DNA of 22,822 nucleotides, from positions 1 through 22,822 of the IMG/VR virus record IMGVR_UViG_3300024433_000059. One strand, given 5' to 3'. The notes beneath the pieces are model-generated. The model ran no database searches and had not been told where the DNA came from. It saw nothing but the letters and a program-made list of their open reading frames with translations. The first letter of the stretch is position 1; the number at the start of each line of letters is the position of its first letter. A program made the position numbers and the translations under genes. Positions 82 through 4,115 of the stretch are shown here, piece by piece. Source of the DNA: a virus.

Positions 82-107
82 TTAATAAACAGCGTTTTTG
101 TGCATAG
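82..107. repeat. 26-bp direct repeat, copy 1
   Basis: Identical over 26 bp to 678-703, with both flanks diverging immediately. On the minus strand both copies encode the same end, MHKNAVY followed by TAA. Here it forms the C-terminus of the Ser-x repeat ORF. The two copies bracket the 109-aa gene and the hexamer array. Confidence 0.97.
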
Positions 108-336
108 ACCAAGATTCAGACCAAGACCCAGACCAAGACCAAGACAAAGACCCAGACCAAGACCCAGACCTAGACCAGGACCCAGACCTAGACCCAGACC
201 AACATTCAGACCAAGACCTAGACCCAGACCTAGACCCAGACCTAGACAAAGACCTAGACCTAGACCAAGACAAAGACCTAGACCAGGACCCAGACCTAGA
301 CCTAGACCTAAGCGAAAATAAAGGCTTTGAAATCAT
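82..336 (-). CDS. Ser-x dipeptide-repeat ORF, coupled to the 109-aa gene
   Basis: An 84-aa ORF whose ATG overlaps the TGA of the upstream 109-aa gene as ATGA, the arrangement expected for translational coupling. After a short unique start (MISKPLFSL) it is almost entirely serine alternating with Arg, Gly, Trp or Leu, because it is encoded by a hexamer repeat (TCTNGG on this strand). It ends with the unique heptapeptide MHKNAVY, which lies in one copy of a 26-bp direct repeat. Hexamer repeats leave several frames open, so openness alone proves nothing. The plus-strand frames (Asp-x and Arg-Pro repeats) lack a convincing ribosome site or context. I do not recognise a family. It could be a real low-complexity peptide or an accident of repeat expansion at the end of the preceding gene. 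Confidence 0.35.
   Translation of the reverse strand: MISKPLFSLRSRSRSGSWSRSLSWSRSRSLSRSGSRSGSRSWSECWSGSRSGSWSRSGSWSGSLSWSWSGSWSESWSMHKNAVY
104..310. repeat. Hexamer tandem array AGACCN (about 34 units)
   Basis: About 205 bp of imperfect tandem AGACCN, where N is A, C or T and essentially never G. A few units diverge, for example AGATTC, ACATTC, AGGACC and AGACAA. Because the unit is six bases, each frame gives a dipeptide repeat: Ser-x on the minus strand, Asp-x or Arg-Pro on the plus strand. The array abuts the 26-bp repeat copy at 82-107. Variation falls almost only at the sixth base, which changes the residue in the minus-strand and Asp-x frames. That fits slippage expansion plus point substitution. 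Confidence 0.95.
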
Positions 337-662
337 ATCTGATCCCTCAAAAGTTTCTCAACAATAGTTGCATCAATTAACGCGCCCCTACCAATAATAA
401 CATCATTATGATACGGCTCTACTTCCATTGTATCGCTATAATCACCTTTTAGAAAATTACTAAATCTTCCAGTGTCCGCTATCCAAGACGCTTTTGAAAA
501 AAGAAATTCGTTTTCATTAATAGATTTTAGTTCTCCAATAATGCTCATCGTAACAGTTCTTACAAAGTAATTTTTTCCAATTTCAAAATAACTACCAACC
601 GATGTTTCTTTTTTTTCATCTATTAAATCTACTAATTTTAAAATACTTTCTAACTTATTCAT
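333..662 (-). CDS. Conserved phage protein of unknown function (109 aa)
   Basis: A 109-aa protein. The segment from about residue 30 to 100 (NYFVRTVTM, GELKSI, ASWIADTGRFSNFLKGD, EVEPY, IGRGALIDA) resembles a small beta-rich family that I recall as common in phages and prophages and annotated hypothetical. The DTGRFS.FL core is the recognisable part. No membrane segment or signal peptide is seen. The start is supported by AGGGA about nine bases upstream. Its stop overlaps the start of the Ser-x repeat ORF as ATGA. It lies inside the region bounded by the 26-bp direct repeats, so it may have arrived as a cassette. No biochemical role can be given. Confidence 0.85.
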   Translation of the reverse strand: MNKLESILKLVDLIDEKKETSVGSYFEIGKNYFVRTVTMSIIGELKSINENEFLFSKASWIADTGRFSNFLKGDYSDTMEVEPYHNDVIIGRGALIDATIVEKLLRDQI

Positions 663-2462: not shown

Positions 2463-2502
2463 AGCGAAAAATCCTATTATTTAAAAAATTACTTTTTTCG
2501 CT
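2463..2502. other. AT-rich inverted repeat in origin region
   Basis: AGCGAAAAA (2463-2471) pairs with TTTTTCGCT (2494-2502) around a 22-nt loop that is almost all A and T. It could be a DNA-unwinding element of the origin. It could instead act as a rightward terminator-like hairpin, although no T-run follows the stem. Confidence 0.4.
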
Positions 2503-2541
2503 CGATTATTCTTTACCTTCCTGAATATGCAATAAGCGTTT

Positions 2542-2561
2542 TAAATAACAGTAAATAACAG
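2542..2561. repeat. Tandem 10-mer TAAATAACAG x2
   Basis: Two perfect back-to-back copies, one helical turn each, 34 bp from the DnaA box on the side away from rep. AT-rich tandem units at this place suit Rep binding or duplex opening. Confidence 0.7.
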
Positions 2562-2595
2562 GACAGTTAATGGCTTTACCTCAGGACACTTGTTC

Positions 2596-2604
2596 TGTGG
2601 ATAA
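2596..2604 (-). promoter_or_regulatory. DnaA box (TTATCCACA)
   Basis: The minus strand reads exactly TTATCCACA, the high-affinity E. coli DnaA box. It lies 138 bp beyond the rep stop and reads in the same direction as rep, as in R1 oriR. Confidence 0.8.
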
Positions 2605-2710
2605 GTTTATAACGTGGATTTGTGCGCTGATATGAGTGGGTTTTTCTAATGACTGTGTTATTATTTGTTTATAATATGAACTTTAATATGAATCGCACAT
2701 AGTTATACGA

Positions 2711-2722
2711 CCGTGAACACGG
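2711..2722. other. Short palindrome after the rep gene
   Basis: CCGTG-AA-CACGG, a perfect 5-bp-arm inverted repeat 20 bp beyond the rep stop. No T-run follows, so an intrinsic terminator is not supported. It may be part of the spacer between rep and the origin. Confidence 0.4.
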
Positions 2723-2742
2723 AACGGGATAATAGGTAGGGT

Positions 2743-3489
2743 TTATTGTTTGCTGACAAGCTCTCTGTAGACGTCCATTGCATTTTCACCTGTCTTGGCT
2801 GCTCTCTCTGAAGCTTCATGCAATAAGTTGGCTGTGTCTCTAGTAGAGATGTTCTGCGTGGGGTAAGGCATTGTCTTGTAGACTCTGTTTTTTGGGACTG
2901 CTTTTTCTAATGCTTTCTTGAAAACTTGGTTAACTTTACCAATTCCCTGTAAACATTTTGTGGTCGCCTTCTTATTATAGTATGTCATCTCGTTCTTCTT
3001 ACGTTTCCAAGCTTTAGTTGTTTCTATTGTTCTATTCTTGAATCCTAACTCTCTGAAGAACTTATGTGTGAATGTACGCAATGAGAAATGGCGTATCGCT
3101 TTACCTGCTTTACCCATTCCTTCTGAACGCTGAACTTTAAGGTAACCACACTTCTCTAGGTCGGATAGTGCCCTGCATACCGTCTTATGGTTCATACCGG
3201 CCTTCTCAACTAGATAATCAAGCCCCCTTGTATAAAAGTCAGTTTTACCATCATGCCTTGTGAAGAATTGTCCCCACGTAAGTGTGTCCAAATCGATTTG
3301 AGGCAAGACAACTTGTAATACATTGATGATGTTCGCTCTACGGTCTGCTCTCTTCTGTTTAGTACGACCAGTAACCTCACAGAAGTGATGTAAAGAGGGG
3401 AGTAGGGCGCCTTGTTTGTTGGTCCTAGACAGATCCAATCTTTGAAGACTGTTTGTAATAAGTGAAGGTAGCTGTTTTTTAGTTTCCAT
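2743..3489 (-). CDS. IncFII RepA-like replication initiator
   Basis: A 248-aa basic protein. The family pattern of IncFII RepA (as in plasmid R1) can be followed by eye: RADRRANIINVLQ (residues 47-59) against 'LRRRAIDALLQ'; a winged-helix recognition segment LVEKAGMNHKTVCRALSDLEKCGYL (93-117) against '..ITRATRALTFLSELGLI'; and SLRTFTHKFFRELG then TTKAWKRKKNE (136-167) against 'ITFTSALFAAL' and 'SRVEWENKQRKK'. These proteins bind their origin in cis and load the replisome. The ATG at 3487-3489 is preferred (GAGA about eight bases upstream). An in-frame TTG at 3514-3516 overlaps the stop of a possible leader peptide. The origin-like region follows directly. A DnaC/O-type phage initiator is less likely, since no helicase or loader motif is present. 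Confidence 0.75.
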   Translation of the reverse strand: METKKQLPSLITNSLQRLDLSRTNKQGALLPSLHHFCEVTGRTKQKRADRRANIINVLQVVLPQIDLDTLTWGQFFTRHDGKTDFYTRGLDYLVEKAGMNHKTVCRALSDLEKCGYLKVQRSEGMGKAGKAIRHFSLRTFTHKFFRELGFKNRTIETTKAWKRKKNEMTYYNKKATTKCLQGIGKVNQVFKKALEKAVPKNRVYKTMPYPTQNISTRDTANLLHEASERAAKTGENAMDVYRELVSKQ

Positions 3490-3512
3490 AATTTCTCTCG
3501 TTAATGTCCCTA

Positions 3513-3557
3513 TCAACGATTAGTGTATGGCGAAAATCTTAAGTTGACTTTGGCCAT
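3513..3557 (-). CDS. Possible 14-aa rep leader peptide
   Basis: ATG at 3555-3557 opens a short frame, MAKVNLRFSPYTNR, whose TGA (3513-3515) overlaps the TTG of the extended rep frame (TTGA) and lies about two dozen bases before the preferred rep ATG. In IncFII plasmids a short leader peptide (Tap) must be translated for repA to be expressed, and the antisense RNA acts by blocking that step. Position and overlap fit, but the ribosome site here is weak (TGAG, six bases upstream) and a 14-codon frame can occur by chance. Confidence 0.35.
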   Translation of the reverse strand: MAKVNLRFSPYTNR

Positions 3558-3572
3558 ATGCTCAGGTATTAT
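3544..3572 (+). promoter_or_regulatory. Strong promoter for antisense RNA, divergent to rep
   Basis: TTGACT (3544-3549), a 17-bp spacer and TATTAT (3567-3572) match the sigma70 consensus at ten of twelve positions. It points away from rep, and no protein frame follows before the terminator at 3658-3684. A 15-bp palindrome (3565-3579) covers the -10 and the start. Confidence 0.7.
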
Positions 3573-3579
3573 TAATACC
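3565..3579. promoter_or_regulatory. Palindrome GGTATTA-T-TAATACC
   Basis: Perfect 7-bp arms around a single base, overlapping the -10 and start of the rightward RNA promoter and sitting just upstream of the leader-peptide ATG on the other strand. It is a good operator candidate for copy control. Binding protein unknown. Confidence 0.55.
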
Positions 3580-3684
3580 GTTATCGTTAATTAGAAACCA
3601 CAAATTCCGTTAATGTAACAAACCTAGTTATTTAACTTACATTCTATAACTAAAACCAAAGGGCCTCTAATACGGGCCCTTTTT
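3579..3684 (+). ncRNA. Putative CopA-like antisense RNA (~105 nt)
   Basis: A short non-coding transcript is predicted from the promoter at 3544-3572 to the terminator at 3658-3684. It has no credible ORF. It can form an internal stem AATGTAA (3612-3618) / TTACATT (3637-3643) with an 18-nt loop, then the GC-rich terminator hairpin. It is transcribed against the upstream leader of rep if rep mRNA begins at or before 3684, for instance as a continuation of the repressor transcript. Size, two-hairpin shape, place between regulator and rep, and opposite polarity all match CopA/IncFII antisense RNAs, which bind the rep leader and set copy number. No sequence identity to CopA is claimed. Confidence 0.5.
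3658..3684 (+). terminator. Rho-independent terminator
   Basis: AAAGGGCC (3658-3665), a nine-base loop and GGCCCTTT (3675-3682) lead into TTTTTATTA on the plus strand, a textbook terminator for the rightward RNA. In the minus direction the hairpin is followed by the poorer TTTGGTTTT, so termination of the repressor transcript may be partial, leaving some read-through into rep. Confidence 0.85.
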
Positions 3685-3693
3685 ATTAGCATA

Positions 3694-3996: not shown

Positions 3997-4017
3997 TGTC
4001 TGTTTCCTCTTTATTAC

Positions 4018-4070
4018 TATAGATACATAATAATCTAAATTCATCTAACTTATCAACCTATGTATCTATA
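4018..4070. promoter_or_regulatory. Paired repressor operators (12-bp inverted repeat)
   Basis: TATAGATACATA (4018-4029) and its exact reverse complement TATGTATCTATA (4059-4070) are 41 bp centre to centre, about four helical turns. They straddle the repressor's own promoter: one arm overlaps the -10 and the other abuts the -35. This suggests co-operative binding and autoregulation. Confidence 0.65.
4027..4056 (-). promoter_or_regulatory. Repressor promoter
   Basis: On the minus strand TTGATA (4051-4056), an 18-bp spacer and TATTAT (4027-4032). The transcript would start near 4020, just inside the left operator arm, and reach the repressor ATG about 25 bases later. Confidence 0.55.
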
Positions 4071-4115
4071 TTAACTGCAACTATGACAAATGTAAAAGTT
4101 TTTATTAAATACTTG

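Follow-up and report, generated by a model that had tools for sequence, protein, structure and literature searches.

Where on its genome does a tailed phage with a plasmid-type initiator gene begin replication, and with which DNA elements? The DNA analysed here, called the window, is an entire IMG/VR virus fragment of 22,822 bp. A preliminary description had placed a compact plasmid-like origin, made of a DnaA box, tandem 10-mers and an A/T-rich hairpin, in a gene-free stretch after its rep gene. The stretch is indeed gene-free, as positions 2257-2742 (486 bp) contain no ORF of at least 60 aa. The cumulative GC skew over the window had no clear minimum near 2500, where one had been proposed as a check; because the fragment spans 22.8 kb, GC skew is uninformative. 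From gene order, motifs and comparison with relatives, we consider it very likely that a theta origin dependent on Rep and DnaA lies downstream of rep, with its core at 2559-2604 and A/T-rich DNA beyond it.

Table 1. Features of the replicon in the window (coordinates of the window), and box and repeat positions in four relatives (nt after the rep stop)
Feature	Position	Strand	Remarks
rep, winged-helix replication initiator	2743..3516	-	257 aa from TTG; intact ORF
C-rich, G-poor spacer, rep stop to origin	2605..2742	-	34 C, 15 G on rep strand; proposed CIS-like segment
DnaA box TTATCCACA	2596..2604	-	exact match; same strand as rep
Proposed Rep site 1, AAGTGTCCTG	2582..2591	-	from repeat analysis; same decamer in viral locus L031
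Proposed Rep site 2, AACTGTCCTG	2559..2568	-	23 bp from site 1; TTAACTGTC variant also in L087
Tandem CTGTTATTTA units (TAAATAACAG on +)	2542..2561	-	A/T-rich; 3-base overlap with proposed Rep site 2
9-bp inverted repeat, A/T-rich loop	2463..2502	none	DNA fold -6.3 to -6.7 kcal/mol
Drgb7	box +132, repeats +176/+198
pRA2	box +138, repeats +153/+175
Stutzerimonas	box +145, repeats +163/+186
B. glumae	box +161, repeats +178/+201

Chance expectations for the box, the tandem units and the inverted repeat were taken from first-order shuffles of the 486-bp stretch. As described, a perfect box stands in rep orientation 138 bp after the rep stop (at 2743); it is the only exact copy in 22,822 bp, and an exact box arose in 179 of 20,000 shuffles. 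DnaA-like 9-mers with one mismatch allowed were no commoner than chance (8 in the window, 6.5 expected). The two exact 10-mers were also confirmed, with TAAATAACAG head to tail at 2542-2551 and 2552-2561; none of 2000 shuffles gave a tandem exact 10-mer, and these units are a possible melting region. The inverted repeat exists too, with perfect arms AGCGAAAAA (2463-2471) and TTTTTCGCT (2494-2502) and a 22-nt loop containing 19 A/T. It is weak evidence, because a 9-bp inverted repeat with a loop of 3-25 nt appeared in 124/2000 shuffles (~6%). Of the three features, then, the DnaA box and the tandem 10-mers exceed chance expectation, and the hairpin by itself does not.

The start of rep is likelier to be the ATG at 3489, with an upstream GAGAG (248 aa), than the TTG. 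The best PHROG matches of Rep were to replication initiation (E 2e-5), and an HTH_36 match lay below Pfam's cut-off. As a single query, Rep found no relatives in phage records, viral contigs or species genomes; tblastn against plasmids returned Aquicella lusitana (33.6%, E 1e-10), Drgb7 RepA, Legionella antarctica, P. luteola and pRA2, and hhalign against a 12-plasmid alignment gave a probability of 97% (E 2.8e-11). By both methods Rep is homologous to the initiators of RepA-RA2-type replicons, and its relatives include annotated plasmid RepA proteins. Further relatives were reached from the plasmid matches and then by using relatives and alignments as queries, which located the family in 52 viral contigs (6 + 46) and in 10 phage records, from Aeromonas phages and Pseudomonas phage PARCL1pr. 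Judged from these matches, Rep is distantly related both to the initiators of pRA2-type plasmids and to the Reps of numerous phage contigs. An AlphaFold2 model (window and viral rows) has a winged helix and a mean pLDDT of 79. Fold comparison was set aside as a guide to initiator identity: it recovered the common winged helix only (best Z 7.7), and the initiator entries 4pt7 and 4pql, at Z 6.5, were tied with many unrelated rows.

The sequence that follows the rep stop was read in 62 relatives, comprising 23 from annotated records (22 loci plus Aquicella, hand-picked from the match lists) and 39 non-redundant viral contigs (52 loci minus 4 in which rep runs off the end and 9 that are redundant). 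TAAGT occurred on the rep strand at +101..300 in 60/62, compared with 8/62 on the other strand and 3/60 on the rep strand at +301..500. TAAGT pairs 20-23 bp apart were present in 34/62. An exact TTATCCACA, counted up to 400 nt past the rep stop, was present in 14 of the 23 annotated records (controls 0/2785) and missing in the other 9; among viral contigs it was present in 10 of 38 (controls 14/6241). The combination of a DnaA box with two TTAAGTGTC repeats 22-23 bp apart was seen in many plasmids (Table 1); in two Legionella replicons the repeat pair precedes the boxes. Comparison with the 62 relatives therefore supports a compact plasmid-like origin after rep. Among the parts previously assigned to it, the DnaA box recurs, whereas the tandem TAAATAACAG and the 9-bp hairpin were not seen to recur in the relatives' downstream stretches that we read.

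Only two relatives, L006 and L016, lacked TAAGT. In L006, a P. luteola plasmid, rep is followed from 3715 on by other genes, including a mercury operon, with box and repeats missing, and this replicon may be broken. Viral locus L029, whose Rep is similar to that of L006, has kept a TTAAGTGTCGG repeat. In the window, the A/T-rich part of the origin is spanned by a large nested imperfect dyad (2445-2583; RNA fold -40.3 kcal/mol, z -3.9, 0/200 shuffles) that neither Aquicella nor L031 shares. Folding of the origin stretch was rejected as a family trait: neither Aquicella nor L031 shows it, and the overall effect is weak (mean z -1.30, n=62; control segment -0.62, n=61).

The recurrent element, overlooked in the preliminary description, is a direct-repeat pair right after the box, at 2591-2582/2568-2559 in the window. 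On the rep strand the order is stop, 138 nt, TTATCCACA (+139), AAGTGTCCTG (+152), AACTGTCCTG (+175) and the tandem CTGTTATTTA units, and the positions of box and repeats fall on those of Stutzerimonas and pRA2. On neither strand does the window hold a second pair of AAGTGTC-like repeats (at most one mismatch each) with a spacing of 22-23 bp; the units of the pair that follows rep are identical at 9/10 bases. When the 486-bp stretch was shuffled 20,000 times, an equally good pair arose in 8 of the shuffles, and in none of them at 100 nt or less from a box. In the window, the first 700 nt downstream of rep contain no exact TAAGT core, and the sites read CAAGTGTC and TAACTGTC. A matrix built without the window ranked the window site first; as proof over the whole window the scan was discarded, not being significant alone (40 of 200 random window-length sequences scored as high). 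Because the TAAGT core is missing and the matrix score was matched by 40/200, we base the identification on place and combination rather than on the motif.

A search for the box-plus-pair pattern matched 0 viral contigs and gave 7 matches in species genomes with the box in rep orientation, and found 7 viral contigs with the box in the other orientation. A Rep-family ORF lay upstream in only 3/14 of these matches; the other 11, the surroundings of 7 of which were inspected, we take as other replicons or chance. In the viral contigs L079 (9527-9588), L083 (1550-1612) and L085 (846-907), a DnaA box precedes two AAAAGTGTCATAC repeats spaced by 23 bp. The stretches examined in these three contain no Rep of the window's family, and the sites perhaps represent another replicon type with a similar site. 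A literature search, beyond whose reach the original pRA2 papers lay, did not recognise the TTAAGTGTC pair as a described origin element.

The window replicon would work like those of pRA2 and IncFII plasmids, as a divergent form, in a tailed phage, of a known kind. RepA-RA2 plasmids (pRA2, Drgb7), a family named after pRA2 in PMC5304414, share with it a homologous Rep and a C-rich spacer; in both, a DnaA box and two direct repeats spaced by 22-23 bp lie at 130-200 nt beyond the rep stop. That article reports sequences after rep to be essential in RepJ and pRA2 replicons. The window differs in that Rep identity is ~18% over the whole alignment, its repeats lack the TAAGT core, its box has the opposite orientation to that of pRA2, and its replicon is phage-borne. 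Because the TAAGT core was sought and is absent, we regard the window as a divergent relative of the RA2 type and not as a member.

An IncFII replicon (L078, E. coli p503440_78) has the same order as the window, namely repA, a C-rich spacer and TTATCCACA in rep orientation, with the box at +176 in IncFII and +139 in the window. The Rep proteins have weak similarity (hhalign probability 64%, P 6.7e-5), and the Pfam IncFII RepA family matched 0 of 24 aligned proteins at E 0.01, window Rep included. The tap and copA elements of IncFII replicons were not recognised in the window (Rfam: none). Because none of the 24 proteins matches the Pfam family and the profile link is weak, the window is not an IncFII member. 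For R1, PMC5883639 reports an effect of the oriR box on copy number. Phage-borne relatives (PARCL1pr, Aeromonas phages Ahp2 and AhyVDH1, and IMG/VR contigs L026-L077) share with the window the Rep family, at 16-25% identity to window Rep, and a box and/or repeats after the rep stop codon, which in their case carry TAAGT. The other window proteins had no match in the regions of these relatives that were compared, except for one tail-fibre stretch in L032 and L038. A partition gene beside the replicon would be a mark of a phage-plasmid; a search for one found no ParA-type Walker motif in the window, itself a fragment, and found such a motif in 5/39 viral relatives within the region examined.

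The C-rich spacer is a further shared trait. Over the first 130 nt after rep, C-over-G skew averaged 0.32 in the relatives (n=62) and -0.02 after other long ORFs of the same loci (n=317); the p value of 7.5e-31 is overstated, because related loci are not independent. The skew is 0.38 in the window and 0.33 in L078, whereas Aquicella, the closest relative, is without a C-rich spacer (-0.12). Because the spacer is a family-wide feature, the origin should be extended to the rep stop. RepA acts in cis in IncFII and IncB plasmids through a rho-sensitive CIS segment that separates repA from the origin.

In the arrangement that we propose, which pRA2-type and IncFII plasmids also show, the origin follows its own initiator gene and would occupy the DNA between the rep stop and about 2460. 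Rep would bind the two direct repeats (AASTGTCCTG); their spacing of 23 bp is about two helical turns, so that they would lie on one helix face. Host DnaA would bind the adjacent TTATCCACA, and the A/T-rich DNA past the second repeat would then melt, with the helicase loaded there. The 138-nt spacer probably acts like the CIS of IncFII/IncB plasmids, so that the rep transcript would end in it and newly made Rep would be passed to the origin on the same molecule. By this analogy, we rate preferential loading of Rep in cis as slightly better than an even prospect.

Could the initiator instead bind inside its own gene, leaving the intergenic box and repeats incidental? The lambda O protein binds iterons inside its own gene and lambda-like phages initiate in this way, and Rep has weak O-like PHROG matches (E 0.03). 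The preliminary description had named an origin inside rep as the case that would speak against its proposal. This case found no support, since rep holds no iteron array, only one imperfect 16-nt pair 140 bp apart, and the relatives' repeats stand after the gene; we consider an intragenic origin very improbable. It is also very unlikely that the gene-free stretch is no more than the promoter and operator region of a leftward RusA operon (1960-2256), with "Rep" being a regulator. The C-terminal part of Rep does match an anti-repressor PHROG (E 0.001), and 2276-2451 contains promoter-like sites and short inverted repeats (AGCGCTATC/GATAGCGCT, TCTATGATA/TATCATAGA and TACTACACATATT/AATATGTGAAGTA). 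However, these elements lie to the left of the core, which fits the initiator family in order and spacing, and the protein has annotated plasmid RepA proteins among its relatives. The promoter/operator reading is likely true of the left half only, and 2276-2451 is probably the control region of the RusA operon.

A decayed plasmid origin is a very improbable third reading: the phage would replicate by another module, and Rep would have ceased to use the diverged repeats. In its favour are the departure of both repeats from the TAAGT core and the fragmentary record, outside which such a module could lie. Against decay, the units still agree at 9/10 bases, the rep ORF is intact, and the TTAACTGTC variant is found in a second replicon, L087, where a Rep-family ORF ends 161 nt upstream. 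An origin downstream of rep, bound by Rep and DnaA, thus remains the reading that we prefer. Two other repeat regions were noted in the window: a tandem array of 12/18-bp units (AGACCT/AGACCA hexamers; ~10.6 copies of 18 bp) at 118-308, near the contig's left end, and inverted 16-mers (TTACTATAGATACATA / TATGTATCTATATTAA) at 4014-4074, upstream of an XRE regulator, which are probable operators.

RepA-RA2-type plasmid replicons have a control leader with antisense RNA (REx-C module) upstream of rep. In the window, the leader of rep (3490-3693, minus strand) is unusually foldable (z -3.4 to -3.7), but 11/302 window tiles have a z of -3 or lower. Antisense to it, on the plus strand, lies a promoter-like TTGACT-17-TATTAT at 3544-3572, and ~85 nt past this site a G/C-rich hairpin (3658-3682) is followed by TTATTAG. 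Positions 3544-3687 (plus) are a candidate gene for an antisense RNA against rep, the RNA itself being predicted at about 3579-3687; the leader/antisense region had no Rfam match.

What began as a guess from motifs is now a replicon open to testing, with a precisely delimited 46-bp core (2559-2604). The comparison also gives a rule, TAAGT pairs and a C-rich spacer after rep, by which origins are located in plasmids and tailed phages, most of whose Rep genes carry the annotation "hypothetical". A more speculative proposal, which we put forward as doubtful, is that a broad, largely unnoticed lineage of tailed phages uses one cis-loaded plasmid origin type, with C-rich spacer, DnaA box and TAAGT pairs after rep, and that the window phage carries a plasmid-style antisense RNA brake on rep and so persists as a copy-number-controlled plasmid. 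If that were true, the two altered Rep sites would represent a new specificity that is compatible with RA2-type plasmids sharing the cell. The interest of the replicon lies in its phage setting and its breadth among phages, which bear on the movement of plasmid replicons between plasmids and phages.
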